From: Aurantiacibacter odishensis
GTDB taxonomy: Bacteria; Pseudomonadota; Alphaproteobacteria; Sphingomonadales; Sphingomonadaceae
Direction: 5' to 3'
Assembly: GCF_003605195.1 (NCBI RefSeq)
Contig: NZ_QYOS01000018.1
Coordinates: 1 to 64,000, forward strand
Length of the DNA: 64,000 nucleotides
The notes under the pieces were generated by a model, which did no database searches, was not told where the DNA came from, and saw only the letters and a list, made by a program, of their open reading frames with translations. A program made the translations under genes and the position numbers. Position 1 is the stretch's first letter, and every line of letters begins with the position of its first letter. Positions 1,543 to 32,274 of the stretch are shown here, one piece after another.

Positions 1543-1629
1543 GCCCAGATGGCGGAATTGGTAGACGCACCGTCTTCAGGTGGCGGCGCTCGCAAGGGCG
1601 TGGAGGTTCGAGTCCTCTTCTGGGCACCA
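1543..1629 (+). tRNA. tRNA-Leu(CAG) with encoded CCA
   Basis: This is an 87-nt class II tRNA. The acceptor arm GCCCAGA pairs with TCTGGGC, followed by the discriminator A and CCA at 1627-1629. The anticodon stem CCGTC/GGCGG closes the loop TTCAGGT, giving anticodon CAG. There is a long variable arm, and the T-arm contains GGTTCGAGTCC. Its 3' end serves as the attachment site of the island that follows. Confidence 0.96.
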
Positions 1630-1643
1630 TTTACACATTCGCC
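1610..1643 (+). repeat. attL: left direct repeat of the tRNA-Leu island
   Basis: These 34 bases run from the T-arm of tRNA-Leu through CCA and 14 bases beyond. They recur in the same orientation at 32242-32274 with one G missing (CTGGG here, CTGG there). The integrase gene starts 170 bp downstream. This is the usual layout for a P4-type integrase: tRNA 3' end restored at the left, copy at the far end. Confidence 0.9.
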
Positions 1644-1733
1644 GACGTTCGTTCGCGATTTCAAAACCCACTGAAATCTGGTACAAAAACGCTAGTTTTG
1701 ATCGCTGGCGTTCATCAGCGTTCGTTTTCGATC

Positions 1734-1770
1734 TGGGGGCCTCGGGGGCCTTTTTTGCCCGAGGCCCCCA
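1734..1770 (+). terminator. Strong hairpin between attL and integrase
   Basis: A perfect 13-bp stem (TGGGGGCCTCGGG, 1734-1746, with 1758-1770) encloses GGCCTTTTTTG. The left strand can instead form a short GGCC/GGCC stem (1738-1741 with 1747-1750) directly followed by T6. It may stop tRNA read-through into the integrase gene. Use of the alternative fold is inference. Confidence 0.5.
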
Positions 1771-1814
1771 CGAAAACAGGCACGGAAAACGCCCGAAATG
1801 GAGGTGAGGCCCCC

Positions 1815-3008
1815 ATGGCGTTGACAGATTTGCAACTCAAACAAGCTGCCCCGCGCGAGCGCGACTGGAAGCTTTCCGACAGCGGCGGGCTCTACATCCT
1901 CGTTCGCCCCAACGGTTCGAAGCTCTGGCGCATGAAGTATCGCCAGCTCGGAAAGGAAAAGAAGCTTTCCTTCGGCAGATACCCTGAGGTCGGCCTAAAG
2001 GAGGCGAGGCTCCTGCGCGATGAGGCGCGGGTCGAGATTGCAAGGGGAGGGGATCCGGCAAGGCGCAAACGCGAAGAAAAGGTCGCTGCACTCATTCGGG
2101 CTGGCGATACCTTCGAGGCGGTCGCCTACGAGTACATCGCCAAGCGCGAGGCCGAAGGGCTGGCGATGGCCACCCTGGTCAAGAACAACTGGCTCGCAAG
2201 CGTGCTCAGCAAGTCGATCGGCCACCGGCCGGTTGCCGAGATCACCCCGCACGAGATGCTCCTAGTCCTCAAGCGGCACGAGCGCGAAGGGACCTACGAG
2301 AAGGCCAAGCGGTTACGCAGTTTTGCTTCGCGGGTCTTCCGTTATGCCGTGGCGACGCTGCGCGCAGAACACGATCCATGCGCTCCCTTGAGAGGCGCTC
2401 TCATCAATCCCAAGCCCAAGCACTATGCGGCGATCACTGACCCTGCCGAACTCGGCGGTCTCCTGCGAGCCATTGATCGCTATGAAGGCAACCACACGAC
2501 GATCTACGCTCTGAAGATTGCGCCTCATGTCTTCGTGCGTCCTGGCGAACTTCGCCATGCCGAATGGGACGAGATCGACTTTGCCGAGGCCGTCTGGCGG
2601 ATCCCGGCGGGCAAGATGAAGGCGCGCCGTCCGCACGCCGTGCCGCTCTCCACTCAGGTGCTGGAGTTGCTCCTGCAGCTTCGCGATCTCAATGGCGGCT
2701 CACGCTACGTCTTCCGGTCTCTTCATGCGAGAGGGCGACCGATGAGCGAGAATACCCTGACGGCAGCCTTGAGGCGCATGGGATACTCCGGGGACGAGAT
2801 GACGGCACATGGGCTGCGCGCGACGGCTTCGACCCTTCTCAACGAATCCGGACTATGGAGTCACGACGCCATTGAGCGTGCACTGGCCCACCAGGATCAG
2901 AATGTCGTGCGCGGGATCTATCACCGCGGCCAACACTGGGAGGAGCGTGTCAGGATGGCACAGTGGTGGAGTGAACACCTTGATGAACTGAGGATAAGCC
3001 AGTGTTGA
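1815..3008 (+). CDS. P4-type tyrosine integrase of the island
   Basis: This 397-residue site-specific recombinase should excise and insert the island at tRNA-Leu. The N-terminal DUF4102-type arm-binding domain (about 1-90, LSDSGGLYILVRPNGSKLW) is followed by a core-binding domain and a C-terminal catalytic domain. The catalytic set is complete: Arg242 (VRPGELR), His332 and Arg335 (HGLR), His359 and the nucleophile Tyr369 (GIYHRG). The open frame extends upstream through the tRNA, but the ATG at 1815 gives the family-typical start ALTDLQLKQ and lies after GGAGGTGAGG. Gene and site are adjacent and intact, so the island may still be mobile. Confidence 0.93.
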   Translation: MALTDLQLKQAAPRERDWKLSDSGGLYILVRPNGSKLWRMKYRQLGKEKKLSFGRYPEVGLKEARLLRDEARVEIARGGDPARRKREEKVAALIRAGDTFEAVAYEYIAKREAEGLAMATLVKNNWLASVLSKSIGHRPVAEITPHEMLLVLKRHEREGTYEKAKRLRSFASRVFRYAVATLRAEHDPCAPLRGALINPKPKHYAAITDPAELGGLLRAIDRYEGNHTTIYALKIAPHVFVRPGELRHAEWDEIDFAEAVWRIPAGKMKARRPHAVPLSTQVLELLLQLRDLNGGSRYVFRSLHARGRPMSENTLTAALRRMGYSGDEMTAHGLRATASTLLNESGLWSHDAIERALAHQDQNVVRGIYHRGQHWEERVRMAQWWSEHLDELRISQC

Positions 3009-3033
3009 CACGCTGAGAGCAGGAGAAGAGTTG

Positions 3034-3546
3034 ATGGATACAGATGAGAGCGAGAACGAGTTGCCCGTCCCCGCGGGTTTGAGCGCCTACTATGCAGCCA
3101 CCGAATTGCACATGGGACGTCTTCGCTGGTTCGCCGAGCATCTGCGGGCGACCGGAGGAAGAATTCACCCGCTGGTTTGTCAAACGATCCTCGAGCTAAT
3201 GGAGGGCGGGCATCCCTACTACACGTTGGAAGTTGTCCGACGATCAGATCTGCCGACCGCGACAAAGAATTCCCAGCTGGAGCTTTTCCGTGACGCCGAC
3301 ATGGCGTTGGCTGTAGCCCGCATTGGCGGCTTCAGACGAGGACCACATAAGGACGCTTGCCATAAAGTTGGAAAGGCAATGGGTTTGAGCTCCAAATACG
3401 TTCGGAAGAGAGTAGCACCCCACCGCGAGATGGCGTTGAAGGCCATTGAGCAGGAGCGGCTCCAAGAGATGTACGACAGAGGCGAAGTGGATTATTTGGG
3501 GCGCAAATTTGCCGCCAAAACGCTTTGCGACGAAGAAAAAAGCTGA
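3034..3546 (+). CDS. Hypothetical island protein
   Basis: This 170-residue soluble protein matches no family I recognise. It is preceded by a good ribosome site (AGGAGAAGAG). The TTG at 3031 directly before the ATG could also be used. The N-terminus is acidic (DTDESENELP). The C-terminal half is basic and helical, with a possible helix-turn-helix around GKAMGLSSKYVRKRVAPHRE, so a DNA-binding role is possible. It lies between integrase and the AlpA-like gene on the same strand, a place often held by satellite regulatory genes. Function is not claimed. Confidence 0.6.
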   Translation: MDTDESENELPVPAGLSAYYAATELHMGRLRWFAEHLRATGGRIHPLVCQTILELMEGGHPYYTLEVVRRSDLPTATKNSQLELFRDADMALAVARIGGFRRGPHKDACHKVGKAMGLSSKYVRKRVAPHREMALKAIEQERLQEMYDRGEVDYLGRKFAAKTLCDEEKS

Positions 3547-3587
3547 GTAACTGAGATCCCCTGTTCATCAATGACCGGGGAAGCTCA

Positions 3588-3767
3588 ATGCCGAATAGTC
3601 TCACACCTCTCGCTTATTCGATCACGGAAGCCTGTCAGGTTTCGTCGATCGGAAAGACCCGCCTTTACGATCTCATCAATGAGGGCCGTTTGAAGGTAAC
3701 GCGTATCGGGCGGCGCACTTTGGTGAATGCGGAATCGCTGCGCGCGCTTGTGGAAGGGAACGGGTAG
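3588..3767 (+). CDS. AlpA/excisionase-like helix-turn-helix protein
   Basis: This 59-residue protein carries a MerR/AlpA-type DNA-binding fold. YSITEACQVSSIGKTRLYDL forms the helix-turn-helix, and the wing LKVTRIGRRTLVNAESLRAL follows. Proteins of this kind activate excision or early transcription in P4-like and PICI elements. It starts 41 bp after the preceding gene and is followed by the unknown gene and the ATPase in the same direction, which suggests one early operon. The ATG at 3588 is the first in frame. Confidence 0.8.
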   Translation: MPNSLTPLAYSITEACQVSSIGKTRLYDLINEGRLKVTRIGRRTLVNAESLRALVEGNG

Positions 3768-3798
3768 CGGATCGGTAGTCTGGCGAAGGTTTGCGGTG

Positions 3799-4359
3799 AT
3801 GCCGACCTTGTTAGACATGGAGATGTCAGCGGCGTGCGAGGCTGTTGGTCTGCGGGAAATCAATCGCGTCGAAGCATGCGGTGTGCCCATGTCCGCAATC
3901 GCCAAGCTTGGACAATTTCAAGACCAGTTCGGCGTCGCGAGAATTGTCAACACAACCGAGAATTTCTTCGAGCCGGATCCGGAAGGTCGCCTGGCGATGA
4001 TCATGCCGGTGATCACGCCCCATACCGACTTCGGGGACACTGGAATCGTCGATCTGATTGCGTTTCAAACCTGTTGTCCGGCCCGGTTTCTTCGAAGGAC
4101 TGGCGACGGTTTTGCTCTTGGTATTGAACATTTGGACCAGGACCAGCCTGTGCGAGTAGTTTCGAACCCGCTTGCCTGGCTGGCGCTCGCCGGTGAGGCG
4201 ATGCTGATCCTCGATTGGGATGCGCCTCGTTTTTTCTGGAATGCGATTAGGCGAGGCCCAGGCTTAATCGTCGAGAGTGATTCAATACGGCGACGATTGC
4301 TGCGCAAGATGGATCGCAGCGTAGCATTTCCTCACATTGAAGTTCCATTAGATGCCTAG
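3799..4359 (+). CDS. Hypothetical protein preceding the ATPase
   Basis: This 186-residue protein matches no family I recognise. The ATG at 3799 has GAAGG ten bases upstream. An upstream GTG in the same frame (3727) would overlap the AlpA gene and is less likely. The start of the next gene overlaps its end by 8 bp (ATGCCTAG), which implies translational coupling with the ATPase. The middle holds LAMIMPVITPHTDFGDTGIVD and a WLALAGEAMLILDWDAPRFF stretch. A primase-like or replication accessory role is possible from context only. Confidence 0.6.
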   Translation: MPTLLDMEMSAACEAVGLREINRVEACGVPMSAIAKLGQFQDQFGVARIVNTTENFFEPDPEGRLAMIMPVITPHTDFGDTGIVDLIAFQTCCPARFLRRTGDGFALGIEHLDQDQPVRVVSNPLAWLALAGEAMLILDWDAPRFFWNAIRRGPGLIVESDSIRRRLLRKMDRSVAFPHIEVPLDA

Positions 4360-5875
4360 GTCGCTGCACCAGGAAGTCAGGTTCCGCGAGGGGCAACTTG
4401 CGCAGTTTGCGACCAAAGCTGAGCGCATGCTGCTCGATGCAAATGTTCCCTTCTTTGTGCGTGGTTCGACCCTGGTTCGACCAGTTAGCGACGAGCTTGC
4501 CGCATCTTACGGAAATACCACCAAGGTTCACCGGCTGGTTGAGGTCGAGATCAGAACCTTAATTGATCATCTCTCTCGCGCGACCAAATGGAAGCGATAC
4601 CATAAACAGCTTGGTACTTGGGTGCCGATAGACCCACCGCGCAAAGTCGCCGAGACAATTTTGGCCCGGGATGGTGAGTGGGGCTTTCCTCGGATCTCTG
4701 GGATCATCGGCACACCTACCTTGAGACCAGATGGAACGATCTTGTCTTCACCAGGCTACGACAAGCTTACAAGACTTTATCTTGCAGATCCCGTGATGAT
4801 GCCCTCGATACCGCTGCGGCCGAGCAAGCAACAAGCTGAGAGGGGGCTGAATTTACTAAATTCTCTCTTGGAGGAATTTCCTTTCGCAGATCGTGCAAGC
4901 CGGTCGGTCGCTCTGTCTGCGCTTATTACGCCGATCGTTCGCGGAGCGATTCCGGTAGCACCATTGCACACGATTTCAGCACCGGTCGCCGGATCCGGGA
5001 AGAGCTATATTGTCGACCTCGCATCGGTCATTAGCACTGGTCAACGCGCCCCCGTCCTTTCAGCTGGGAAACACGAAGACGAGACTGACAAGCGAGTTGC
5101 AGCTGCTTTGCTCGACGGCCATCCGGTCATATCAATTGATAACGTCAACGGAGACCTGGGTGGCGATCAACTCTGTCAAGCAGTCGAACGACCCATTGTC
5201 TCACTTCGCCCACTGGGCCGTTCGGAGCTTGTAAGAGTTGAAAGTTACGCCACCTGGTTCGCAACCGGCAATAACATTCAGCTGGTCGGCGATATGGTTC
5301 GTCGCACAATCCAGTGCAAATTAGATCCTCAGGTCGAAAGACCAGAATTAAGAGAGTTTGCTGCTGACCCGGTGCAAACGGTTCTGGCAGATCGAGGTCA
5401 ATTTATCGCTGCGGCGCTTACTGTCGTTAGGGCATACCAGGTTGCTGGCTGTCCTGAACCAATGCCGCCGCTTGGATCGTTTGAAGAGTGGAATAGGCTA
5501 GTACGTTCTACACTGGTTTGGCTAGGGCAAGACGACCCGCTCAAGACTATGAGTTCGGTGCGTAATCTGGATCCAGCAATCGCTGACCTTGGCGCATTGC
5601 TTCGTGCTTGGCACCGAGCGGCTGGAGACGATTGCAAGACCACTGGCGATGTAGTGACTTTGGCTCTTGATCTAAATCCGTTCGGTAATCGATGCCACGA
5701 AGATTTATACCAAGCGCTCCTTGCAATTTCGGAAGGGCGCAGAGGTGAGCCTGATCCGCGAAAGCTCGGTTATTATCTTAGGCGTGAAGAAGGCCGGATT
5801 GTCGATAACCTGCGATTTCAATCGATGTATGATGGTCATGCAAAGCAGAAGCTATGGTCTGTCCGGCGGGTATAG
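4352..5875 (+). CDS. Primase-associated (D5/P4 alpha-like) ATPase
   Basis: This 507-residue protein is probably the replication ATPase/helicase of the island. A P-loop APVAGSGKS lies at 210-218, a Walker B-like segment HPVISIDNVNG at 257-267, and a sensor-like ATWFATGNN further on. The N-terminal part (SLHQEVRFREGQLAQFATKAE) resembles the region linking primase and helicase in satellite proteins, but no TOPRIM or zinc-finger primase domain is visible, so it may work with a host primase. It overlaps its upstream neighbour by 8 bp. The stop codon falls inside the first cluster of 9-bp iterons, a natural place for an origin. Confidence 0.75.
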   Translation: MPRSLHQEVRFREGQLAQFATKAERMLLDANVPFFVRGSTLVRPVSDELAASYGNTTKVHRLVEVEIRTLIDHLSRATKWKRYHKQLGTWVPIDPPRKVAETILARDGEWGFPRISGIIGTPTLRPDGTILSSPGYDKLTRLYLADPVMMPSIPLRPSKQQAERGLNLLNSLLEEFPFADRASRSVALSALITPIVRGAIPVAPLHTISAPVAGSGKSYIVDLASVISTGQRAPVLSAGKHEDETDKRVAAALLDGHPVISIDNVNGDLGGDQLCQAVERPIVSLRPLGRSELVRVESYATWFATGNNIQLVGDMVRRTIQCKLDPQVERPELREFAADPVQTVLADRGQFIAAALTVVRAYQVAGCPEPMPPLGSFEEWNRLVRSTLVWLGQDDPLKTMSSVRNLDPAIADLGALLRAWHRAAGDDCKTTGDVVTLALDLNPFGNRCHEDLYQALLAISEGRRGEPDPRKLGYYLRREEGRIVDNLRFQSMYDGHAKQKLWSVRRV

Positions 5876-5962
5876 CGGGTTATGCGGGTAAGATTTTGCA
5901 CTGCTGCTCGGCATTATCTTTGGCCCGCACAAGGAGTCGAGAATCTTACCCGCATTACCCGC
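5866..5962. repeat. Facing 9-bp iteron clusters, candidate replication origin
   Basis: GCGGGT occurs at 5866, 5875 and 5884, exactly 9 bp apart. Its complement ACCCGC occurs at 5948 and 5957, also 9 bp apart. The arms 5875-5895 and 5942-5962 are inverted copies matching at 20 of 21 positions and flank a 46-bp centre. Phased iterons beside a replication ATPase suggest an origin of the satellite P4 type. An operator or hairpin role is the alternative. Confidence 0.55.
5919..5938 (+). repeat. Direct repeat copy 1 (TTTGGCCCGCACA-NN-GAGTC)
   Basis: These 20 bases match 7172-7191 at 18 positions in the same orientation, including 13 consecutive bases. The copies bracket the DUF2280 gene and the frameshifted gene. 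This copy lies in the loop between the two iteron clusters. Confidence 0.55.
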
Positions 5963-6008
5963 CCACAATAATCGCAAGCCTCCTGAAAACTTACCTCGGC
6001 CTTACCTG

Positions 6009-6512
6009 ATGACGAGAATTCCAGAACACGTAAAACGGAGATTGATCGAGCATCTCGCAGCCTACAGGACACCGGGTACGGTCGCCCAGATGATCCGCGC
6101 TGAGTTTGGTATTGATATGACGCCAAGGCACGTCAGGGCTTATGACCCCACGACCTATCAATTCGCTGCCGGAGAACGGTGGCGAGCATATTTTGAGGCT
6201 GCTCGCGCACGCTTTGACCGCGAGATTGCGGAGATCCCGATCTACTATCGGGCGTACCGCCTTCATGCCTTGGAGAAGATCAGGCAGCAGGCCATGGAGC
6301 AAGGAGATCTACGCCTAGCAATGAAGGTCTTGAAGCAGGCGGCTGAGGAGGTCGGCGATATTTTCGTCAATAGGGCAGTCCGGGCCAACAAGATTGATCA
6401 GCTACGAAGCTGGTCTGAGGATACCGCTGAGCCGAGCGAGAAGCCTCGCATCGTCGTACAGAGAGCCATTGGTGAGGTGATCAGAATGGACGCGAAAGAT
6501 TCCGGCGAATGA
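6009..6512 (+). CDS. DUF2280 protein, terminase small subunit-like
   Basis: This 167-residue protein belongs to DUF2280, a phage-associated family commonly encoded next to terminase genes. Family features are visible in order: HVKRRLIEHLAAYRTPGTVA, EFGIDMTPRHVRAYDPTT (a helix-turn-helix-like region), WRAYFEAARARFDREIAEIP, and KVLKQAAEEVGDIFVNR. Phage-inducible islands often carry their own small terminase to redirect packaging, so this gene supports a satellite origin. No large terminase or capsid genes are present. The packaging role is inferred from the neighbourhood of the family, not shown here. Confidence 0.8.
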   Translation: MTRIPEHVKRRLIEHLAAYRTPGTVAQMIRAEFGIDMTPRHVRAYDPTTYQFAAGERWRAYFEAARARFDREIAEIPIYYRAYRLHALEKIRQQAMEQGDLRLAMKVLKQAAEEVGDIFVNRAVRANKIDQLRSWSEDTAEPSEKPRIVVQRAIGEVIRMDAKDSGE

Positions 6513-6566
6513 CTGTCGGAACGGATCAGTCTCGATCTGTGGGGCTTTACTGAAAGGGAACTTGGG

Positions 6567-7081
6567 ATGACCGCTGCATACCAGCTCCCGCTCTTTGCGC
6601 AATTTCCACTCTCAGAGCTCTTCAGGATGCGTAAGGCGCGATTGCGGGAGACCCTCCTAACGGTCTCTTTGCCCATCAATCAGCGGGACTTGGTAGATAC
6701 CTTATGCATGAACCTAGAGCTGTATCCGATTGAGCTACGGACTGAGGATCTGCACATTGAAGTCGAACCAGCCGGCAAGATGGGGGAACTGGCGAGCAGG
6801 TTTATTGCTATACGCTCTCTGTTCCGTTCGTGGGCGACGCCGAGCTTTGGATGTTCCGCGCGGACGAGGAACATGATTGGCCCGATGGCGAACATTTTCG
6901 TCTCCGCTTGATCCTTGCGGTCCATGGAACCTCGATGGAAGAGGGTGAGCGCCTACTGCTGGAAAGGCTTGCGATCATCGAGACCATTATCAGCCGCCAG
7001 ACCAGGCAGATTGAAAGCTTCAACGCTGACCTGCCGACGATCGTCCACGATACCGTCCAAAATTATTGCGCGGTCCATTGA
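6567..7081 (+). pseudogene. Unknown island gene with a frameshift at a G tract
   Basis: Two overlapping open frames belong together. The first begins at the ATG 6567 after AAAGGGAAC and continues to 6911. The second carries the natural continuation (YTLSVPFVGDAELWMFRA, then RLILAVHGTSMEEGERLLLE) to the stop at 7079-7081. Adding one G to the G5 run at 6782-6786 joins them into a product of about 171 residues. It is either an inactivated gene or a sequencing slip. The family is unknown. The C-terminal half is helical (LAIIETIISRQTRQIE). It is the last plus-strand gene of the satellite-like module. Confidence 0.65.
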
Positions 7082-7113
7082 TTTACGATGCATCCAGACG
7101 CCGCAGTCGAAGT

Positions 7114-7129
7114 GGCCCCTAAGGGGGCC
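7114..7129 (+). terminator. Weak terminator-like hairpin
   Basis: GGCCCC (7114-7119) pairs with GGGGCC (7124-7129) over a TAAG loop, 33 bp after the last plus-strand stop and followed by TTCTAC rather than a full T run. Apart from this and the direct repeat, 7082-7372 holds nothing I can identify. Confidence 0.35.
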
Positions 7130-7171
7130 TTCTACATATGTGAATTCGATTACGCTTGTGGATCTGGGGTA

Positions 7172-7191
7172 TTTGGCCCGCACATCGAGTC
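7172..7191 (+). repeat. Direct repeat copy 2 (TTTGGCCCGCACA-NN-GAGTC)
   Basis: This is the second copy of the element at 5919-5938, 18 of 20 bases identical. It lies between the satellite-like genes and the convergent defence module, so it may mark the edge of a transferred cassette. Confidence 0.5.
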
Positions 7192-7372
7192 CCACTGAAG
7201 GAGACAAATCAGCGAGCAGCCGAGCGTCCTCTTCGATTTATCCTTTGCCATTTCCTCCCAAATAAATGCTGAAGTCGATTTCTGGCCTCGCGGATTAAAC
7301 TTCTATCCGAAACAAAGTGCCTTTAACCGGCCGACGGTGCAGAAGCGACGTATTGAAAATCCGATTATTCCT

Positions 7373-8893
7373 CTAAGCATCTAGCTGGCCGCACTCTTGC
7401 AACAGGCTCAATGCTGTCTCGATGCGATCCGGTGTGGGGTTCGGCCTACCGCCTGGATTGTAACCGTCAGCCAGCCGCCAGCCGCCCTCATCGATGAAAA
7501 TGCGCATTCGGAGGATGGTCTTGCCGTTGCTTCTCGCGTCCTGCAATCCTCGCCCAACACTCCAATAGGTATGCTGCGCAAACAGCCAGCCTTCGATCAT
7601 ATTTCCTATAAACGCTTTGGGCGTTAGGCTTTCCCAAGCGTGCCAATCTTTCGCCGCCCTGATTAGGGGCAGCCTGTCGCTTCTTTCAAATCCTTCAGCC
7701 TCAGATGGAGCTTCGGCAACACAAAAGCGCAGTGCCTTCATGGCTGCCAAGGGAAAGCCAACCTGATCATCGAGAGACTGCTCCAGTGAGTTGAGGTGAT
7801 CTATCGGATCTGACGAATAATCAAACGTGGAACACCATTCCTGCGCGGTGCCCTGCTCACTTACTGGACCAAGCTCTTCGATAAAATTCGATGCCAAACG
7901 GCGGGTCGAGAGTGGGCGATCAACTAGAGCTAGCTGTGTCCAGGTGAGGAGGCCTTCAAGTGCCAGGCGAAAAACTTGCCTTACCTGCATTCTGCGCCAG
8001 GCGATTGCATATGGCTTTAACTCGTCAGGGAAAGGAACTCCGGAGGGATCGCTCATAATCCGGCGAACCCGTTCTTCCTCATTGACGCTGTTTGTTCCGT
8101 AGGTTGCTGCGAACCGGACAAGCTGAAGGCCGCGCTTTCGTACTTCGCCACCATAGCCAGAGTTCACGCGCGTCCATGCAGCCTGTTTACCCTCGGGCGT
8201 CACGTCTTTCATTCTCCACATCTGCCCCCAGGCTTTGGCTTCTTCTCTCGTCACCGTGACCGCGCCAAACTCATTAAACGCCGGGTGAGGCAACGCGTCA
8301 GAGAAACTGGCTTCGAACTGTTGAAGGGCCAATTCTAGACCCGGATCAGCCTGTGGGTTGGCTTTGTAGGCGCCGCGTTGGTTGACGGTTGAGTCCTCCA
8401 AGTCCGCGAGGTCCGCAATCCAATTCATTGTCCGTAAGCTGGGCCCGTAATTCACAGCAGCGATAAGGCCGGTTGAATATCGCCGGACATTGCGAAATTT
8501 TTCCCAAGCCTCCCCACCAAAGGTATAGGTCTCGCTTTGAATCAGGCCCGCTAGCGCTTGACCGCCCGGCAAGTCGGTTTCGTCATCGATCAAGAACTGC
8601 GACCAAGCATAGATCGTCTCGATTCGGTCGACGAAGTCTCGAAGTTCGCCAACGCTTCTTGGTCCTAGTCGCTCATTCAAAACCCCAGCGCGACGCCAAG
8701 CCCAAGTCATCAGCAAATAGGGTCGAACATGACGAGCCACATTGTTCAGTCCAGGCAGCACTTGATCCATCATGTCGAAATTTATCTGCCTAAGTCCGAG
8801 CGGATCCACACCACCGATGTCGATCTTTGAGGGGTCGACAAGCCGTGCTGCCATCGCTGCGTCCGAAGCGGAGATCAATTCATCGAGGTTCAT
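7373..8893 (-). CDS. Unknown protein partnered with a PLD-type nuclease
   Basis: This 506-residue protein matches no family I can name with certainty. The ATG at 8893 (MNLDELISASD) lies 14 bp inside the upstream nuclease gene, so the two are translationally coupled. An earlier start at 8905 is less likely. The N-terminus has GVDPLGLRQINFDMMDQVLP followed by NNVARHVRPYLLMTWAWRR. This loosely recalls the opening of DUF6361-type proteins found near helicases and PLD nucleases, but I hold that resemblance only from memory. No membrane segment, P-loop or catalytic signature is evident. Context (restriction genes, nuclease partner, island) suggests a defence role, probably as sensor or regulator. 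Confidence 0.75.
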   Translation of the reverse strand: MNLDELISASDAAMAARLVDPSKIDIGGVDPLGLRQINFDMMDQVLPGLNNVARHVRPYLLMTWAWRRAGVLNERLGPRSVGELRDFVDRIETIYAWSQFLIDDETDLPGGQALAGLIQSETYTFGGEAWEKFRNVRRYSTGLIAAVNYGPSLRTMNWIADLADLEDSTVNQRGAYKANPQADPGLELALQQFEASFSDALPHPAFNEFGAVTVTREEAKAWGQMWRMKDVTPEGKQAAWTRVNSGYGGEVRKRGLQLVRFAATYGTNSVNEEERVRRIMSDPSGVPFPDELKPYAIAWRRMQVRQVFRLALEGLLTWTQLALVDRPLSTRRLASNFIEELGPVSEQGTAQEWCSTFDYSSDPIDHLNSLEQSLDDQVGFPLAAMKALRFCVAEAPSEAEGFERSDRLPLIRAAKDWHAWESLTPKAFIGNMIEGWLFAQHTYWSVGRGLQDARSNGKTILRMRIFIDEGGWRLADGYNPGGRPNPTPDRIETALSLLQECGQLDA

Positions 8894-11249
8894 GATCACT
8901 CCCAACCACAGCGATCAGGCGTCCACATCGACCATTAGTACATTTGGAGACGTCAAGGAGACGCAGGTCTTCTCTAGCAGATGTCGCCAAAACTATGTTG
9001 CAGCGCGGGCACGCGTCCGCAGGCTCTTCTAAAGTAAGTAGACGCTCTCTTCGCCCCGGATCGGAATGGAGCAATCGCAAACTGGACCAAAGATTGTGTT
9101 GTTCTAGAGCGGGCAGAGGCGGCAGTTCTTGCTCAGTCGGCGTCGAAAGGAGGACTTGTAGTTCTTCAGAGCAGGTTCTCGCATCTACAATCTTCTGCAG
9201 CGCGTCGGACCGCTTGATTTGCAGTGGAATGACGCTCGCCATTGCAGGAAGTCGCTGGGCATCCGCATTCTTCAAGCGATTGATCAATCCATGTCGAACA
9301 AGAAATCGGCGAGTGCTTTGGATTTGTTGTTCGTATGGTCGATTTGCGACTTGGAGAACAGCTAGTGCGACGAGGTCTTGGGCTAGTTCTTCGCTGATTT
9401 TCCCTCCGCAGCCTCGTTGGATCCGATCGACCCACTGTAGGACTTGCTCGGGCTCGGGACGTATTCGGTCGGTAAGGTAGTGGGCGAGCGCAAGCATAGC
9501 TTCAGCGTGCGCGCCAGAATGGCCCGAAGCCATTGCTGCCGAGAGTAACTTCCCAAAGGTTAGCAGCGTCTGCTCATTCTTTTGCTCGTCGCGGACGAGA
9601 TCCCCTTCAGCTCCCGCATCTAATTCGCCGCGATCCCGAGCGGCTTGAGCTTCTTCATTGAATGGTCCGCTGGTTGCGCGAAATGCATCCAACAATGCAC
9701 GCATTGCATATGAGAGGCCCGATTCCCGCTCCGCCCCCGTAAAGTGGTCGTCGTGCACGTTGTAGTTCGCCGCGAAGGCCGAAGCAGAGACAAGCTCAAC
9801 TTGAACTTCTTCAGGGCGCTTTGAGCCAAAGTCTGAGGTCGAGGATGCTCGAGGCAGGCGATCGGGATCTTCGTGAAACCAAGAAATTATCGCCGCAACG
9901 TCGGTCGGCGTTTCGGTCCCAGAGAGGATGGCCAAGATACGAGGACCAGTCTTGCCTGTGCGTTTGGCCAGGTCAGAAACAGCCTTAACTGACAAGAAAC
10001 CGCTCGCTTGAATGTCGCCGTTGCTGAGAGTGAGAATGATTCTTCCAGTTTGCCAGGCTTTGTCCGCCATCTCCAAACTGTGCTGCGCAAAAGAGCCGTC
10101 ATCGCCGACTGTTACGTTTCCAAGGTCAAGAGTCGTGCCTGCAATGCTACACCTCAGATTGCCATCAGCGAAAGGCCACCCGCCCATTACTTTCCCGACG
10201 ACGGCGGAGCCCTGGAGTTCAGCACCAAGCACTTTTGTCGCTTCTGCTCCGGCTTCGAGATCGTCTTGTTCGTCGAGCGCTTGTCTGGGGGGCGGCGAGC
10301 AGTCGGAAATGGACCAAACTTGGTCGCGACTTGGAAAAATTCGCAAGACCGCTGCTTCTGAATTCGGACCGAAGAGCCCGGCCCGAGTTGCGTTCGCGCT
10401 GCCCGAAAGTAGCAAGCGGCCCGATCGGCAAACTATCTCTACGCTCTTTGCGTGCAGCCGCCTTTGATCGCTCGCCCAAGCCTCGGAGATATGTCCAGCT
10501 CGAAGCGTCAAATCAGAATCGTGCGGCCAGTTGCTGCTCGAAACGCCTTGGACTTCGCCACCCTGGTGAACGTAACCCCATATATCTTCACAATTTAGCA
10601 GGTTTGCCAAATCTCTGACGCCTCGGCCATCGAGATCGTAAAAGGGCGCAGCAAAGCAAATGCGTGTCGCACCGCCGAGATTTTCTGCCTCCTCGTGCAA
10701 CTGGCCGACAATGGTTTGACCGGCATTATGGAGCAGACGCACCCGCCCATTGTCCGTCTTTCCGCTAATCGTTGCGCGTAACTCTTCTGCGAAAGTCATT
10801 ATCCGCTCAGGCGCAGCAATTTCCACGAGTTCGCCTGTCGCGAGAAGTTCAAGATAGTCGGCTAGGTCAGAGAATAGGCGCGGTGCGTTCCCTGTATGAA
10901 AATGTTCGAGAAGTTCCGCATTTCCTCCCCAGCCGCCGAAAGTCAGGTTACCTGAACCGACCAACAGATGAGCGTCTTCCTCGTCCAGAAAGGCCGAAAT
11001 CTTCGGATGAAATACCCCGGCATTTTGATGGACTGGTAGCAGCTCATATTCGCGACCAACCAGGCGAGCGCCTTGCTCAGCGAGAGCATGGGTAATGCCT
11101 TGTGTGTCGGCTAGGATCAGCGGATCCCTTCCTCCACCTCGCACGAAGGCATCCATCACCACTGCCTCGAAAAAGGATAGACTTAAGGCGTAGGTGGTGA
11201 ATAGTGAGCGCTTCCAGGCTGAAGCTCTGACGATATCAAGTGGTTGCAT
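8880..11249 (-). CDS. PLD-like nuclease with C-terminal zinc ribbon
   Basis: This 789-residue protein has a two-half phospholipase D fold. The first half has FHPKISAFLD (His81, Lys83) and GSGN; the second has LHAKSVEIV (His266, Lys268) and GSAN (near 283-286), so both HxK sites are intact. A long helical middle follows. The C-terminus has CPRC and a second cysteine pair in CTNGRCGRL, a zinc ribbon likely to bind nucleic acid or the partner. The ATG at 11249 has AAAGG eight bases upstream; an open frame extends to 11330. It overlaps the partner gene by 14 bp. PLD-family proteins of this layout act as nucleases in several defence systems, and here the role is inferred. Confidence 0.8.
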   Translation of the reverse strand: MQPLDIVRASAWKRSLFTTYALSLSFFEAVVMDAFVRGGGRDPLILADTQGITHALAEQGARLVGREYELLPVHQNAGVFHPKISAFLDEEDAHLLVGSGNLTFGGWGGNAELLEHFHTGNAPRLFSDLADYLELLATGELVEIAAPERIMTFAEELRATISGKTDNGRVRLLHNAGQTIVGQLHEEAENLGGATRICFAAPFYDLDGRGVRDLANLLNCEDIWGYVHQGGEVQGVSSSNWPHDSDLTLRAGHISEAWASDQRRLHAKSVEIVCRSGRLLLSGSANATRAGLFGPNSEAAVLRIFPSRDQVWSISDCSPPPRQALDEQDDLEAGAEATKVLGAELQGSAVVGKVMGGWPFADGNLRCSIAGTTLDLGNVTVGDDGSFAQHSLEMADKAWQTGRIILTLSNGDIQASGFLSVKAVSDLAKRTGKTGPRILAILSGTETPTDVAAIISWFHEDPDRLPRASSTSDFGSKRPEEVQVELVSASAFAANYNVHDDHFTGAERESGLSYAMRALLDAFRATSGPFNEEAQAARDRGELDAGAEGDLVRDEQKNEQTLLTFGKLLSAAMASGHSGAHAEAMLALAHYLTDRIRPEPEQVLQWVDRIQRGCGGKISEELAQDLVALAVLQVANRPYEQQIQSTRRFLVRHGLINRLKNADAQRLPAMASVIPLQIKRSDALQKIVDARTCSEELQVLLSTPTEQELPPLPALEQHNLWSSLRLLHSDPGRRERLLTLEEPADACPRCNIVLATSAREDLRLLDVSKCTNGRCGRLIAVVGSDHEPR

Positions 11250-11318
11250 CGTAGAGCCTTTTTGCATCATTTTGCTGAGCGCAAAAGTCGTTTCCGGTTT
11301 CTCTTTGTAGGACGATAG

Positions 11319-11332
11319 GCTTGGCGCCAAGC
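11319..11332. promoter_or_regulatory. 14-bp palindrome upstream of the PLD module
   Basis: GCTTGGCGCCAAGC is a perfect palindrome 70-83 bp upstream of the nuclease start and after the small ORF. It is a candidate operator for the two-gene module. No regulator gene is adjacent. Confidence 0.4.
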
Positions 11333-11390
11333 GGCGTTTGCGTCCTGACCCCGTATCGAGAATTTGGCTTCCTCAACGTACCTGAAGCCG

Positions 11391-11486
11391 TTACTCACGC
11401 TGGGCAGCCAGCCGTTCCTTGAGAGTGGTATCGAGCGGGGCAGACAGCGCGGACGCCACGTCCCCCGCCGTGCGGATTACACGCAT
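11391..11486 (-). CDS. Small leader ORF before the PLD module (31 aa)
   Basis: A 31-codon frame starts at the ATG 11486 behind AAAGGAATCCCACC, a plausible ribosome site, and reads MRVIRTAGDVASALSAPLD before TAA at 11391. It looks like the first residues of a longer protein, so it is either a remnant or a leader peptide. It lies between the hsdR terminator and the PLD nuclease on the same strand. Confidence 0.4.
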   Translation of the reverse strand: MRVIRTAGDVASALSAPLDTTLKERLAAQRE

Positions 11487-11503
11487 GGTGGGATTCCTTT
11501 CGG

Positions 11504-11539
11504 GCAAAGAAAAAGCCCCCGGATGTCATCCGAGGGCTT
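11504..11539 (-). terminator. Intrinsic terminator of the restriction operon
   Basis: On the minus strand a 13-bp stem (arms 11527-11539 and 11513-11525, with AAGCCCTCGGATG) is followed by TTTTTCTTTGC. It lies 57 bp after the hsdR stop and separates the restriction operon from the PLD module. Confidence 0.8.
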
Positions 11540-11595
11540 GCTGGGGGAGGGGGCTGCAAGTTTCGCCTCATAATAAATACCGGATTTTCCTCACT

Positions 11596-14500
11596 TCATG
11601 CGGCAGCTCGACCTTGCAGATCCTTCAGTACCTGCACAATGCGATGCACATCTGCCTGCGGGAACACGCCACTAACACCCTGATCGTCCAAGTCGGTGAA
11701 CGGGCTTTCGTAGAGGCGGCGTGGGTCCATCGCACCGCGTTCCGTCAAATAGTCGATGATCAGATTAATGAACTCGATCTGGTTCGCGTTGAGGTTCTTG
11801 CCCGCCACAAGCTCGCCAAACGCTTCCTTCGCAGCCTCGCGATCAAGGCCGATGAGTGAACGAATGAATAGGCCTAGGCCGCCCTCGTTCGTGATAACGG
11901 CGATGTCAGCGTCACTCGCCTCTGTTTCCTCGCGCAAGATGCGCTCCAGCTCGACCAAGTCCTGCGGGGTCAACTGCTCATTGCGGTAAAGTTTTTGGAT
12001 CGTGATGTGATCGGCATGGGTTTTGAGGAAGTGGCGCACCTTCATCAGGAAGCGCGGCTTGTCAGTCCCAATACCCGCATGTGGCAATTGGATGCGCGTC
12101 GCTTCGCCCATCTCGTCTTCGAAGTCGGTGTAGATGATCACTGCTTCATCGCCTTCGATCAGCTTCATCAGAGCACGGAGCCGGCGACGCATCTGCTCGA
12201 GCGTCCAAGCATCGATGTCGGTCCAGTAGTCAGGCGTCTGAACTTCGAGGATCAATTCCATCTGCGCTGCGACCATCGGGACATTCCCGAGACCTTCGAG
12301 CTTAGAGGCTAGCGCGAGCACTTTCTCCTGACACTGCGCGAACGACACATGATTCTGGAGAAGAGAAAGCTGCCCTCTTAGGATGATATAGTCGAACTGC
12401 TTTGCAGCGATGTCCGTATCTTCGAATGCCGACGGTAAACCGGCAATCTCGCCAATCAGCACCTCACGCTCATTCGGGCCGATCTCGTTCCATGCTTCGC
12501 GCATCTGAAACTTCTCAACCTCCTTGCGCTTGGCGCGGACAAGGAAATTATCGAGATTCATGGCGGCCACCTCATCGAAAAGGCGGTCGCGCGTGTCTAT
12601 GTCGAGCTGCGCCAGACCTTGCCCACGTTCTTCTTCGGGCAAGCCTGCCAGCTGCATGGCGAGCTCGATGCGTGTGGCAAACAGCTTCTCAGTAAGGGAA
12701 GCAGATTGCGTGCCTTCCTTCAGGTTCGGGTTCTGGTTGAAGAATTCGAAATTCTGGCAATAGTCGAAGATCAAGAACTCAGTTTTGTCGCGCCCAGGCC
12801 CGAACAGGTCTTCGCAAAGGCGTGTGCCGCGTCCGATCATCTGCCAGAATTTGGTCTTTGATCGCACGACCTTGAAAAAGACGAGATTGAGCACCTCGGG
12901 CACGTCGATGCCGGTGTCGAGCATGTCGACTGAAATGGCGATGTGCGGCGGTTTGTCGGCAATCGAGAAATCGTCGATCAGGGATTGCGGGTACTCAACC
13001 GAGTAGTCGATCACACGGGCGAATGAGCCCTTTAAATGCGGGTAGTTGGTATCAAATCGCTCCGCGATGAACTGCGCATGCTTGTGGTTCTTGGCGAAGA
13101 TGATCGTCTTGCCCAGCCGGTCGCCCTCGGCAACCTTGAGGCCGTTGACCATTAGATGCTCAAGTACCTTGTCGACGGTGTCCTCATTGAACAACCACTT
13201 GTTAAGCGCCGTCGGATCGACATCGTCCCTGGGAAGCTGGCCTTCCCATTCGAGAATATCCCACTTCTCCTTGTCCTCATCGGAGAGCTGGTCGTACTTG
13301 ATCCCCTCACACATGAAGCGCGTCGGTACCGATATCGGAGTAGGCGGAACAAGGAAGCCGTCACCCACTGCCTCTTCGAGATCATAGCTGTCAGTCGGTA
13401 CACCGCGCTCAAGCTCGAAAAGCGAGTAGGTGTCGCGGTCGATCTCATCGCGTGGGGTAGCGGTAAGCCCGACCAGCAAGCTGTCGAAATAGTCGAAAAT
13501 CGCACGGTATTTCCGATAGACGGAGCGGTGTGCCTCATCGATCACGATCAGATCGAAGTGCCCTGGGCCATAGCGCTTCCGGCCGTTCTGAATTTCGTCA
13601 ATCAGCCCCATCATCGTGGGGTAGGTGGCAACACAAACGCGCGCGCCATTGTGGTCGTTCTTCTTCGCGTCGTACTTCTCGATCAGGTTCGCGCTCGGGG
13701 TGGTTGGGATATGCGCCTTGAACGCGTTGTGCGCTTGCTTCACCAATGCGACGCGATCGGCCAGAAACAGTACGCGCTTGCACCAATTTGCGCGCATCAG
13801 CTGATCGACCAGCGCGATTACGGTGCGGGTCTTGCCCGAGCCCGTCGCCATCACCAGCAGTGCCTTGCGTTGTCGGTCCTTCTCGAAGGTCTCACCGATC
13901 CGGCGGATGGCGCGTGTCTGATAATAGCGCCCTGCGATGCTCTCATCAATCTTGGTGGTAGCAATGGACCGGCGCGCAGCCTTGCGCTGGCGCCACAGTC
14001 CCAGCTCGCCCTTCTTGTAGAAGCCGTGTACCTCGCGGGGCGGATAGGCCCCGTGATCCCACAGCCAATGCTTATAGCCATTGGTAAAGAAGATCAGCGG
14101 GCGCACGCCGAATTGTTGCTCCAGACAGTCGGCATAAAGCTTTGCTTGCTGCTGGCCTTCACGCGGATCGCGCTTGGTGCGCTTGGCTTCGATCACCGCC
14201 AGCGGCCTGCCGTCATCGCCCCACAGCACATAATCGACAAAGCCCTCGCCAGAGGTGCTGGGCATACCAGTGACCGGAAACTCGCGGTCGCGCGGCTGAT
14301 CGAGCGGCCAGCCAGCCTCGGCCAGTAGGCGGTCGATCCAGATGTCGCGGGTTTCGGCTTCGTTGTAATCGTGGGCGTCTTCGACCTTGGCATTCTCGGC
14401 CTTGATCGCCTCGATCTGCGCCTGAAGCCGTTTGATCTCCTCATCGAGCGCGGCGCGGTCTTCCTCGCTATTGATGCGGGCGGCCTGCTCTTCGGCAAGC

Positions 14501-15000
14501 GCCTTCGCTGCGTCCTCGCGCTCCTTGGCCATGGCCTGCAATTTCTTGAGGGTGGAGGCCTCCACCTGCACCGCACGCGGCAAGTCGGAGATGGAGAACT
14601 GTACAGCCGGGTGGGGCTTAACCCCGCGCGCATAGGTGCGCACCAGCCAATAGCAGAAATCAAAGAGCTGCTTCAGACTGTCGGTCGCGGACCTCTCCGG
14701 GATGGACCGCGTCTCATGCACCGCGACATTGCCCAGGTCCTTGATGATCCGCGCCTTGGTGACCAGCGGATTGCCGACCAAGGAGCGGAACGTGCCCTCA
14801 TGGATCAGCGCGGAAAGCGTTGTATCATAGGGCGAATGCAGATTGCGATCATGCTCGTACATCCACTTGACCGCGCTTTCGAGCGCGAGGCGGGAATGAA
14901 AGCAGCTTCCGCGTGGATCGGACAGGGCGAGTGTTTCCGCCTTCCTTGCTAAGCGAAAGACCTCGGCAAATTCAGCTCGGAGGAAGGCGAACTGGCTCAT
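11596..15000 (-). CDS. hsdR: Type I restriction enzyme, R subunit
   Basis: This 1134-residue subunit gives the enzyme its ATP-driven DNA translocation and cleavage. A DUF4145-like N-terminal domain (about 1-125) is followed by a coiled coil (about 150-208). The nuclease core has Asp256 and the EAK triplet 271-273 (PLAVIEAKRTKRD). The motor has Walker A MATGSGKT at 384-391, DEAH at 488-491, GLTATP, and the motif VI segment QMIGRGTRLCEDL. All key residues are present. Its ATG overlaps the stop of the Abi-like gene as ATGA, so it is the last gene of a coupled four-gene operon and is followed by an intrinsic terminator. Confidence 0.95.
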   Translation of the reverse strand: MSQFAFLRAEFAEVFRLARKAETLALSDPRGSCFHSRLALESAVKWMYEHDRNLHSPYDTTLSALIHEGTFRSLVGNPLVTKARIIKDLGNVAVHETRSIPERSATDSLKQLFDFCYWLVRTYARGVKPHPAVQFSISDLPRAVQVEASTLKKLQAMAKEREDAAKALAEEQAARINSEEDRAALDEEIKRLQAQIEAIKAENAKVEDAHDYNEAETRDIWIDRLLAEAGWPLDQPRDREFPVTGMPSTSGEGFVDYVLWGDDGRPLAVIEAKRTKRDPREGQQQAKLYADCLEQQFGVRPLIFFTNGYKHWLWDHGAYPPREVHGFYKKGELGLWRQRKAARRSIATTKIDESIAGRYYQTRAIRRIGETFEKDRQRKALLVMATGSGKTRTVIALVDQLMRANWCKRVLFLADRVALVKQAHNAFKAHIPTTPSANLIEKYDAKKNDHNGARVCVATYPTMMGLIDEIQNGRKRYGPGHFDLIVIDEAHRSVYRKYRAIFDYFDSLLVGLTATPRDEIDRDTYSLFELERGVPTDSYDLEEAVGDGFLVPPTPISVPTRFMCEGIKYDQLSDEDKEKWDILEWEGQLPRDDVDPTALNKWLFNEDTVDKVLEHLMVNGLKVAEGDRLGKTIIFAKNHKHAQFIAERFDTNYPHLKGSFARVIDYSVEYPQSLIDDFSIADKPPHIAISVDMLDTGIDVPEVLNLVFFKVVRSKTKFWQMIGRGTRLCEDLFGPGRDKTEFLIFDYCQNFEFFNQNPNLKEGTQSASLTEKLFATRIELAMQLAGLPEEERGQGLAQLDIDTRDRLFDEVAAMNLDNFLVRAKRKEVEKFQMREAWNEIGPNEREVLIGEIAGLPSAFEDTDIAAKQFDYIILRGQLSLLQNHVSFAQCQEKVLALASKLEGLGNVPMVAAQMELILEVQTPDYWTDIDAWTLEQMRRRLRALMKLIEGDEAVIIYTDFEDEMGEATRIQLPHAGIGTDKPRFLMKVRHFLKTHADHITIQKLYRNEQLTPQDLVELERILREETEASDADIAVITNEGGLGLFIRSLIGLDREAAKEAFGELVAGKNLNANQIEFINLIIDYLTERGAMDPRRLYESPFTDLDDQGVSGVFPQADVHRIVQVLKDLQGRAAA

Positions 15001-15947
15001 GCGGCCTCCCCGATTGAATAGATATCAACTGAGTTCAATTGGTCGGTCAGATATGGTGCAAACCCAAACAGGACGACACAAACCGAAACGAGATCGCGCA
15101 TCTCAATTTCCCGAAGCTTATTAGCGGGGGTCCCCCCGTGGCGTATGCCAGGATAATCGGAGGCGAAACCGTACAAGCCCTTGACGGAATCTTTCACTTT
15201 TTCGTGCGGCCAGGTCCCGACCTGATTGCAGATTGCTCCCAGGGTGTTGCCAGTGACGTTTGGTGCAAGGCTGCCAATAGCTTCCAGGAAATTGGTCTGC
15301 TTCGCAATGCAGGTCTTAATGCGGTTAGGCGTCTGTTCGATGGTTAGATCACGGAGAGCGTCTTCAAATTCGTGAAAGGCGTTTGCCAAGTGCGCATCAG
15401 CCTCTGCCGCAGACTTTAAATTGCTCACCATCCTAGCGAAGATTCCAGGCAGTGTAGGATGTATCGAAAATGGTCGACGAAGATCATATCGTAAGCTGTA
15501 TTTGTCGATGAAGGTTTGGACGAGAATGAAGTAGCGGTTGCTCAATCCGTCACCGCCTATGTCCCGAACTTTTTCATGCACCGCTGCTAGGGCTCTTAGA
15601 GCTTTACTCTCAGACGTGATGTGTAGCGGCAACTCAGTGCGCAGCCAGCGTCGAGCGTTTGTGTTACCCGACACGGCTTGCTCATAATGAGACCGAGCCG
15701 CATTGAATGCCTCAAGGGCGTCTTTGTAGGCCTCTTCTTCCGCAATTTCGGCAGGGTCAGTGAGGTTGCCGTCTTCATCGTATTGCGTTGGTTCTGCAGG
15801 CTCGGTGGGCGGAAGTGGCAACGGTATGACTGCATCATACAATTCTGAGAAAAGCTCGTTCGGCGCATCTTTATGTTTTGAGAGCTTTACGAAAACCTCT
15901 GACCATACCTTGTCCCATACATTTAGAAGTTCACCGCGCATGATCAC
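14997..15947 (-). CDS. Abi-like protein embedded in the restriction operon
   Basis: This protein of about 316 residues is encoded between hsdS and hsdR with 4-bp overlaps on both sides (GTGA at its start, ATGA at its end); an ATG two codons later (15941) could also start it. The N-terminal half is acidic and proline-rich (VIPLPLPPTEPAEP). The C-terminal third (ICNQVGTWPHEKVKDSVKGL, then LYGFASDYPGIRHGG) resembles the C-terminal domain of abortive-infection proteins with a HEPN-like helical fold. That resemblance is by eye. Full coupling suggests it is made in fixed ratio with the restriction subunits, perhaps as a back-up that shuts down the cell or a modulator of HsdR. Confidence 0.75.
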   Translation of the reverse strand: MIMRGELLNVWDKVWSEVFVKLSKHKDAPNELFSELYDAVIPLPLPPTEPAEPTQYDEDGNLTDPAEIAEEEAYKDALEAFNAARSHYEQAVSGNTNARRWLRTELPLHITSESKALRALAAVHEKVRDIGGDGLSNRYFILVQTFIDKYSLRYDLRRPFSIHPTLPGIFARMVSNLKSAAEADAHLANAFHEFEDALRDLTIEQTPNRIKTCIAKQTNFLEAIGSLAPNVTGNTLGAICNQVGTWPHEKVKDSVKGLYGFASDYPGIRHGGTPANKLREIEMRDLVSVCVVLFGFAPYLTDQLNSVDIYSIGEAA

Positions 15948-17068
15948 AGCCCTCCTAGGAAGGCGCTGTGTTGGAGCGATGCAAAGAGGTGATCCAATTG
16001 AGCTTTCGATCGCAAGAGACGCTCCCTCGTCTCACCAATTTTCGACATGGTCGCGCCAAATTTTTTTTGCACCTCAATTGGCGGCAGGAAGATTTTAAAT
16101 TTCTTTAAGGACGCACCTGACAAATTGGGCTGCGCCAGCCCATTGCTGTAAAAATCAATTTCCTTTTTTACGAGGCGACTTCCGAGGTAGCCGCGAAAAA
16201 ACTCATGATCGAGAGAGTCTGAAATTCTTATAATGATTAGAGAAGATGCAATCGCACCTGACATTCCATCAGGCACCAGAGCGAATTTTCCGAGGGACCC
16301 TCTCAAACAAAACAGGAAATCGCCACCAGCGAACTTCCCAGATCGTAGCATCTCGAATCTAGCATCAGAAATGTAAGATAGGTTGCTTCGCACCACCTCC
16401 CCGTTGGCATCCAGATCAGCGGCGCTAACGAACGGAATGCCCTTACTTAGAAGAGATTTTTTTCCAGGATAATTCTTACCTCGATCCCCATTCTCAAATT
16501 CACACACCTCAGAGAGTTCGGACCATCTTCCCTTCGATATATCAAGCTGAGCGAACGCCGCTTCACCAAATTGATTCAGGCGGTCGATCGCTCGCTGACG
16601 CTTGCGGCGCAGCTCGTCCGCTTGATCAAGGATCGCCGCAATCCGCTTCTGCTCATCGAGCGGGGGGACGGGAATTTCAATCTCATGAACCAAATTTCGG
16701 TTCAACGTCGGAACGCCCACTCCGCGCGTATATTGCTCAAGTCGCATCCAACGAAGCAGTCGCGACACCCATTTTGGTTCATTGCCGTGGAAGTCCTTCA
16801 CCCAGAGAGCCGTGTTCAGCGGCCAAAAGTTTTCTTCGACAAAATGGACATTTCCCAAGGAACCACTTCGACCAGTGACGACACCAGGTCCCTCAACTTT
16901 ATGGACGGAATGTGTTCCTACCGAGCCATTGGCGGCAAAAATCGGAACTACTCCGTCTTGTCGATCCTGCACCGGCAAGTCGAATCCACGTTGCAGCGTG
17001 GCAACGTCTCCCGCCGCTTTCATTGTCCACCCTTCAGGTAGCTGCCAATCTGCCGGAAGCGAGCTCAT
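15944..17068 (-). CDS. hsdS: Type I restriction enzyme, specificity subunit
   Basis: This 374-residue subunit has the usual two target-recognition domains, each followed by a helical spacer. The first ends with IPVPPLDEQKRIAAILDQAD, a conserved HsdS signature; the second ends with FLPPIEVQKKFGATMSKI. It would set the recognition sequence for both methylation and cleavage. The coding sequence is visibly richer in A and T than hsdM and hsdR, as is common when HsdS domains are exchanged. The ATG overlaps the hsdM stop (ATGA), and its own stop overlaps the start of the Abi-like gene. Confidence 0.93.
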   Translation of the reverse strand: MSSLPADWQLPEGWTMKAAGDVATLQRGFDLPVQDRQDGVVPIFAANGSVGTHSVHKVEGPGVVTGRSGSLGNVHFVEENFWPLNTALWVKDFHGNEPKWVSRLLRWMRLEQYTRGVGVPTLNRNLVHEIEIPVPPLDEQKRIAAILDQADELRRKRQRAIDRLNQFGEAAFAQLDISKGRWSELSEVCEFENGDRGKNYPGKKSLLSKGIPFVSAADLDANGEVVRSNLSYISDARFEMLRSGKFAGGDFLFCLRGSLGKFALVPDGMSGAIASSLIIIRISDSLDHEFFRGYLGSRLVKKEIDFYSNGLAQPNLSGASLKKFKIFLPPIEVQKKFGATMSKIGETRERLLRSKAQLDHLFASLQHSAFLGGL

Positions 17069-32241: not shown

Positions 32242-32274
32242 GAGTCCTCTTCTGGCACCATTTACACATTCGCC
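32242..32274 (+). repeat. attR: right direct repeat of the tRNA-Leu island
   Basis: These 33 bases repeat the tRNA-Leu 3' end (from GAGTCCTCTTCTGG through CACCATTTACACATTCGCC) with one G fewer than attL. The 30.6 kb between the copies is the island. Sequence identity stops right after this core on both sides. Confidence 0.9.

Follow-up and report, generated by a model that had tools for sequence, protein, structure and literature searches.

The locus considered here raises the question of whether two overlapping genes, found on a 64,000-nucleotide stretch of contig NZ_QYOS01000018.1 of Aurantiacibacter odishensis (hereafter the window), form a defence system of their own or a version of one already named. 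A first-pass annotation had proposed a new two-gene defence module, consisting of a phospholipase D (PLD) nuclease with an overlapping partner, for which no named system of this composition was known. Judged by homology, the pair is a variant related to the Zac system of PADLOC (which we take to be the Azaca system of Millman et al. 2022) without the helicase of that system, and not a categorically new system. What stands of the proposal is a co-inherited two-gene module with an intact PLD nuclease, carried by mobile DNA and frequently close to defence genes.

Both genes were found to be open on the minus strand, with the ZacB-like gene of the putative Tdp1-fold PLD nuclease at 8880-11249 (789 aa from its ATG, the listed open reading frame (ORF) beginning further upstream with a TTG at 11330) and the partner gene, for a probable remote ZacA/DUF6361-like protein of 506 aa, at 7373-8893. 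By codon positions they overlap by 14 bp (8880-8893), as had been claimed, because the partner ATG at 8893 precedes the PLD gene stop codon at 8880-8882. A Tdp1-like catalytic domain was predicted for residues 1-330 of the PLD protein (10260-11249). The two PLD half-sites were confirmed with the residue numbers first given to them, one comprising H81-x-K83, GSGN (N101) and E112 (10914-11009) and the other H266-x-K268, GSAN (N286) and E298 (10356-10454), and each of these residues was invariant (30/30) when conservation was scored over 30 rows, the window included. A C-terminal cysteine cluster (C747/C750/C770/C775; 8925-9011) was likewise found by alignment where a zinc ribbon had been read, the ribbon itself being probable; C747 is kept in 30/30 rows, C750 in 23/30 and C775 in 24/30 (His in five of the remaining six), while C770 of the window is not kept as such, most relatives carrying Cys at the column of window residue G773.

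Pfam returned only a sub-threshold match of the PLD protein to PLDc_2 (9.8e-5), and Tdp1 was the top fold match of its predicted structure, well above other PLD proteins. A sequence search of solved structures returned BfiI (E 0.56), of which the HxK-SxN-NxE residues line up with the second half-site, and two spliceosomal chains (0.84-0.85). The protein is modelled as a PLD-superfamily phosphodiesterase with a Tdp1-like core followed by a beta domain, a helical region and the C-terminal zinc ribbon, this being one component of the explanation set out below, which we judge as a whole to be somewhat probable. Tdp1 is a eukaryotic repair enzyme, from which the protein of the pair differs by these three additional parts and by its constant partner. 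BfiI, NgoAVII-R and SauUSI resemble the protein in being PLD nucleases, in their case of restriction systems; BfiI and NgoAVII-R possess a B3-like DNA-binding domain and SauUSI a helicase, whereas in the pair DNA binding would sit in a separate protein.

The pair is a real, conserved unit that is co-inherited. Among 199 genomes of the family (its own counted), the PLD protein was found to match eight places in seven genomes, three of them of the close clade, and a partner-type gene adjoins the PLD gene at all eight places (split into two open pieces at locus L023). The partner matched five of the 199 genomes, four as pairs and one as a C-terminal fragment (G111, locus L027, 8454-8654); this fragment lies near transposase- and integrase-like pieces recognized by eye and is apparently a decayed copy. 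A scan of named genomes using an alignment of the close clade yielded 30 loci, which from their titles we take to be of Sphingomonadales, Rhodobacterales, Hyphomicrobiales and other Alphaproteobacteria, with two of Acidobacteriota. The PLD gene was directly upstream of the partner in 29 of the 30, the other (L045) being cut by a contig end. With near-copies (L037/L038/L058 and L055/L056) reduced by omitting L038, L058 and L056, and with the window added, 28 loci were counted. With start codons picked by script, one of 29 loci has an intergenic gap of +72 bp and the other 28 lie between -37 and +9 bp; from member to member, distances in one protein correlate with those in the other (r = 0.98, 26 members). 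No other gene cluster occurs in more than six of the 28 loci, with clusters of four to six stemming mostly from the same few loci.

The partner was found to carry the signature DPLGLRQINF (residues 30-39; 8777-8806, minus strand), which is present in 31/31 rows and aligns with the N-terminal motif of ZacA. The earlier statement that this protein belongs to no known family holds for the window partner itself, which matched neither a Pfam nor a PADLOC family, but is incomplete in view of its relatives, ZacA being matched by seven of 27 close-clade partners (best E 2e-5). One of two cousin partners also matched ZacA (0.0014), and an alignment of seven partner-family sequences matched it over 48 N-terminal columns (E 1e-4, probability 57.7). 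A profile of four distant cousins, with the window left out, was found to recover the window partner (3.5e-5), two genuine full Zac loci (approximately 6e-4) and three further two-gene pairs, seven of the 385 genomes scanned being matched (G502 at E 6.6e-4). Profiles of close-clade and cousin partners align over 426 columns (E 8.8e-13), by which the two are clearly one family. The fold search of the partner gave no reliable structural match, a winged-helix DNA-binding fold having been among those considered, and a family absent from the searched set could still fit; three epimerase chains (E 0.1-1.6) were returned from the sequence search of solved structures. A partner homologue on the conjugative plasmid pLA4 (L080, 8013-9506) is annotated as a 'septum formation inhibitor-activating ATPase', a protein to which the window partner showed no match in its searches, Pfam included.

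On the side of the nuclease, PADLOC ZacB was found to match the PLD protein at E 4.1e-11, over the PLD core only, and comparison of the PLD family profile with ZacB gave 205 columns at E 2.8e-12 (probability 97.6), so that this protein reads as a ZacB homologue with both half-sites. Its weaker PADLOC matches, to PDC-M27B, DrmC and PbeA, were all over short PLD stretches. Because of these profile scores, together with a weaker one given below, the homology of the PLD protein to ZacB is regarded as firm and that of the partner to ZacA/DUF6361 as probable but remote. A pair unrelated to named systems was ruled out by this homology.

ZacA is itself Pfam DUF6361 (E 7.2e-81), and ZacA loci were found in three of 299 genomes, with ZacA (approximately 390 aa), ZacB (approximately 620 aa) and a helicase (approximately 1050 aa) in a row. 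Zac and the pair each place a PLD gene next to that of a DUF6361-type protein (a probable one in the pair), and they share the PLD core and, probably, the N-terminal motif of the partner. They differ in that five Zac loci carry the approximately 1050-aa helicase beside ZacB, while the pair is without such a gene as a fixed part; in size, the partner being approximately 500 aa and the PLD protein approximately 785 aa; in the C-terminal cysteine cluster, a feature of the PLD protein of the pair; and in gene order, which in the window clade is the reverse of the ZacA-ZacB order of Zac. Three layouts were identified, namely Zac (ZacA, ZacB, helicase), the cousins (L022, L024-L026 and L070-L072), which are two-gene pairs with the partner before the PLD gene, and the window clade, with the PLD gene before the partner in 29/29 readable loci. 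In a phylogeny built on PLD residues 1-420, the window clade forms one group (support 99/97), apart from the cousins and ZacB (100/98), with several long branches. The copy on a Rhizobium plasmid (L081) falls inside the window clade and shares its gene order; at this locus (6180-9656) the PLD protein is annotated as 606 aa with one matched half-site only, still beside its partner. At two Zac loci, two further large genes upstream of ZacA (L073, 9260-15318; L074, 9259-15263) look, from the start of their sequences, like a UvrD-type helicase/nuclease pair.

The question of whether the pair maps to a named system thus received a divided answer: it maps to the AB core of Zac, yet it has no ZacC-type helicase and its gene order is the reverse. 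Azaca is listed, in the table of a review, among systems of unknown mechanism (PMC12926258). A literature search gave no defence paper naming ZacA, ZacB or ZacC among the matches listed, did not find DUF6361 as a term and returned no paper with PDC-M27, and the portions available of two PADLOC papers make no mention of 'Zac'.

Helicases near the pair were investigated with a profile built from four ZacC and one PDC-M27 helicase. This matched all five Zac loci (four by construction, three ZacA finds and one other being in the profile), the BrxHII-like gene of L031 and of L041 and one flanking gene of L074, with no match in the window flanks, the cousins or the other loci searched; it is not a general helicase detector, having missed ZorD of L047 and HsdR of the window. 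In a nine-query helicase search, 10 of the 28 loci had a helicase-type gene no more than three genes from the pair, which ruled out that the pair has no helicase anywhere near it. The kinds are HsdR (window), YprA with a BrxHII-like helicase (L031, L041), ZorD (L047), UvrD-type (L039, L040, L044) and strawberry-notch-type (L032, L035, L043) helicases. Over all locus DNA examined the count is 13/28, with none in 15/28, and among the seven cousins such a gene was found near L024 and L071; these counts are lower bounds, because 8/28 loci hold less than 1.6 kb on one side. The module is regarded as having no helicase of its own because the nearby kinds differ, none is ZacC-type and many lie on the opposite strand. 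The odds of the readings discussed below are unchanged by this search. At the cousin locus L024 (8812-16353), the pair may belong to a four-gene operon, as the partner is immediately preceded on its strand, at 49 bp by the gene calls, by a 1062-aa gene and a UvrD-like gene.

DISARM, PDC-M27 and ARMADA as the identity of the pair were rejected, or found to be neighbours only, by PADLOC, the ZacC/M27 profile and hhalign. The one PDC-M27 locus seen (L082) encodes a 'DPLG'-motif protein, a PLD protein with a core matching that of the pair and a helicase-like protein, the large gene of the latter being unlike the pair. M27A (one sequence) gave E 0.27 against the partner profile with hhalign, no supported homology, and no gene beside the window pair matched the profile that includes the M27 helicase. 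DISARM DrmC has the PLD core in common with the protein of the pair (E 2.4e-4) but belongs to a multi-gene system with a helicase and a methyltransferase, neither of which is part of the module; DrmA and DrmB were not found beside the PLD gene, in a comparison that used Pfam and PADLOC on the hsd side and, opposite, Pfam and PHROGs plus PADLOC for a single gene. A two-protein precedent is Hachiman, in which a helicase acts as sensor and the partner restrains the nuclease until damaged DNA is met (PMC12278908); the helicase sensor has no counterpart in the module.

Proteins flanking the pair (98, hand-picked from 148; at most two per side for most loci and three for the window) matched 204 PADLOC families at 1e-15, compared with 12 families for 98 of the 111 called genes in seven control stretches of the own genome, a contrast that is rough because the flanking set is larger (43,309 versus 32,976 residues) and one helicase matches many families. 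Twenty genes chosen by hand, each no further than three genes from the pair, were matched singly. Matches were found to DruE/DpdE/DrmMI (L031, ARMADA-like), Zorya A, B and D (L047), a Mokosh-like gene (L046), HEAT-ARM_XIII (L048), HsdS (L053), TIR-pAgo (L059), PDC-M26B (L041), PD-T4-6/mad6-like (L045) and UvrD helicases (L039, L040; possibly generic), while six of the 20 (two each of L052 and L055, one of L043 and one of the two of L048) were unmatched. With HsdR of the window counted, a defence-type neighbour is present at 11/28 loci, or 9/28 without the UvrD cases, the remaining loci being mostly not scanned singly. Relatives were found on seven plasmid records, three of them conjugative, including pLA4. 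A phage-borne module was ruled out, as a phage search gave no relative at E 1e-3, none of the 83 IMG/VR stretches that fit peptide patterns encodes a relative and a PHROG search of the pair gave none at 0.01. The pair is probably defensive.

The explanation that we somewhat favour is that of a mobile two-gene module acting as one complex against invading DNA, in which the PLD nuclease would be aimed or licensed by its partner. The two HxK-SxN-E half-sites would combine, as is usual for PLD enzymes, into one active site that works without metal or ATP, and the partner, a diverged DUF6361/ZacA-like helical protein, would probably bind DNA and set where or when the nuclease cuts. We infer that the two proteins together would degrade or nick invading DNA. 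As there is no fixed methyltransferase, not a host mark but DNA ends, replication intermediates or modified DNA would serve to tell self from non-self. Two points weigh against this explanation: the 27-member profile of close-clade partners reached only E 0.029 (probability 1.7) against ZacA, and neighbouring helicases may help the pair, counter to helicase-less action.

An unlikely alternative is a toxin-antitoxin-like or abortive pair, in which the PLD protein is a lethal nuclease restrained by the partner until infection. This would suit genes that are strictly paired and overlapping or abutting, and the Rhizobium plasmid protein annotated with 606 aa and one matched half-site, which keeps its partner. 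Typical antitoxins are small and fast-evolving, whereas both proteins here are large and well conserved, down to the partner motif, and the partner matches no Pfam family. Quite unlikely is a host DNA-end repair module, modelled on the Tdp1-like removal of 3' adducts and present on islands by chance, which the rank of Tdp1 among the fold matches and the SbcCD-like genes within three genes of the pair in 3/28 loci would favour; its patchy distribution in the family, its presence in Acidobacteriota and on plasmids, its defence neighbours and its homology to ZacB argue against this. The SbcCD-like genes (L054, 2937-7635; L055, 2937-7635; L043, 16275-21010) consist of a metallophosphatase and an AAA_27 ATPase (by Pfam, for those of L055 alone); in L054 and L055 their gene calls run into the start of the PLD gene, by 4 bp for the second gene of L055. 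Least probable is an accessory cassette that borrows the helicases of larger systems such as ARMADA (YprA helicase, BrxHII-like helicase and PglX-like methyltransferase; PMC12458937), since, although the sister pair L031 is directly upstream of an ARMADA-like operon on the same strand, L041 has the same layout and helicase-type genes are often close, those helicases differ in kind, more than half of the loci show none and ARMADA-like genes occur in 2/28 loci only.

Upstream of the pair, 83 bp before the PLD gene ATG, the perfect 14-bp palindrome GCTTGGCGCCAAGC was found (11319-11332), as first described, but the module does not conserve it: palindromes of at least 12 bp occur in 5/29 relatives, with other sequence, and in approximately 6% of shuffled 250-bp stretches, and a conserved operator was thereby ruled out. 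Between the hsd operon and the pair lies a terminator-like hairpin that belongs to that operon (11513-11539, minus strand). The neighbouring restriction operon named by the first-pass annotation was verified with Pfam and PADLOC as a type I restriction-modification operon outside the module (11596-18606, minus strand) with HsdM, HsdS, a 316-aa gene and HsdR. HsdR (11596-15000) has an N-terminal DUF4145 (residues 21-108), and the 316-aa gene between hsdS and hsdR (14997-15947) matched the PADLOC candidate PDC-S32 (1.6e-8), with no Pfam family above cut-off.

On the other side of the pair lie phage-type genes and, on the plus strand, tRNA-Leu (1543-1629) with its linked integrase (1815-3008), the left edge of a mobile island (1543-3008). 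A 507-aa gene within 3799-5875 (plus strand) matched phage primase/polymerase-type profiles in their C-terminal part alone and is preceded by a 186-aa gene without a match, which may mean a split or reduced replication gene. Positions 1610-1643, the 3' end of tRNA-Leu, recur as a direct repeat at 32242-32274 (33/34 bases), these 34-bp repeats being probable attachment sites of an integrated element of approximately 30.6 kb, which also bears TonB-type and metabolic-looking genes, and an integrase-like fragment recognized by eye lies just past the repeat (32398-32877). G+C content is 54-56% over 3009-18606 and approximately 61% beyond.

A rather unlikely extension of these findings is that the pair would act as an immune nuclease by itself and without ATP, with a DUF6361-like protein aiming Tdp1-type phosphohistidine chemistry at DNA ends or at 3'-blocked or protein-linked phage replication intermediates, and would represent the minimal core on which the helicase-bearing Zac and PDC-M27 were built, or a form that has lost the helicase. 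The pair points to a Tdp1-like nuclease within bacterial immunity. With a ZacA-like/ZacB-like pair that is co-inherited and has no ZacC helicase as a constant companion, the roles of DUF6361 and of the helicase become directly testable.

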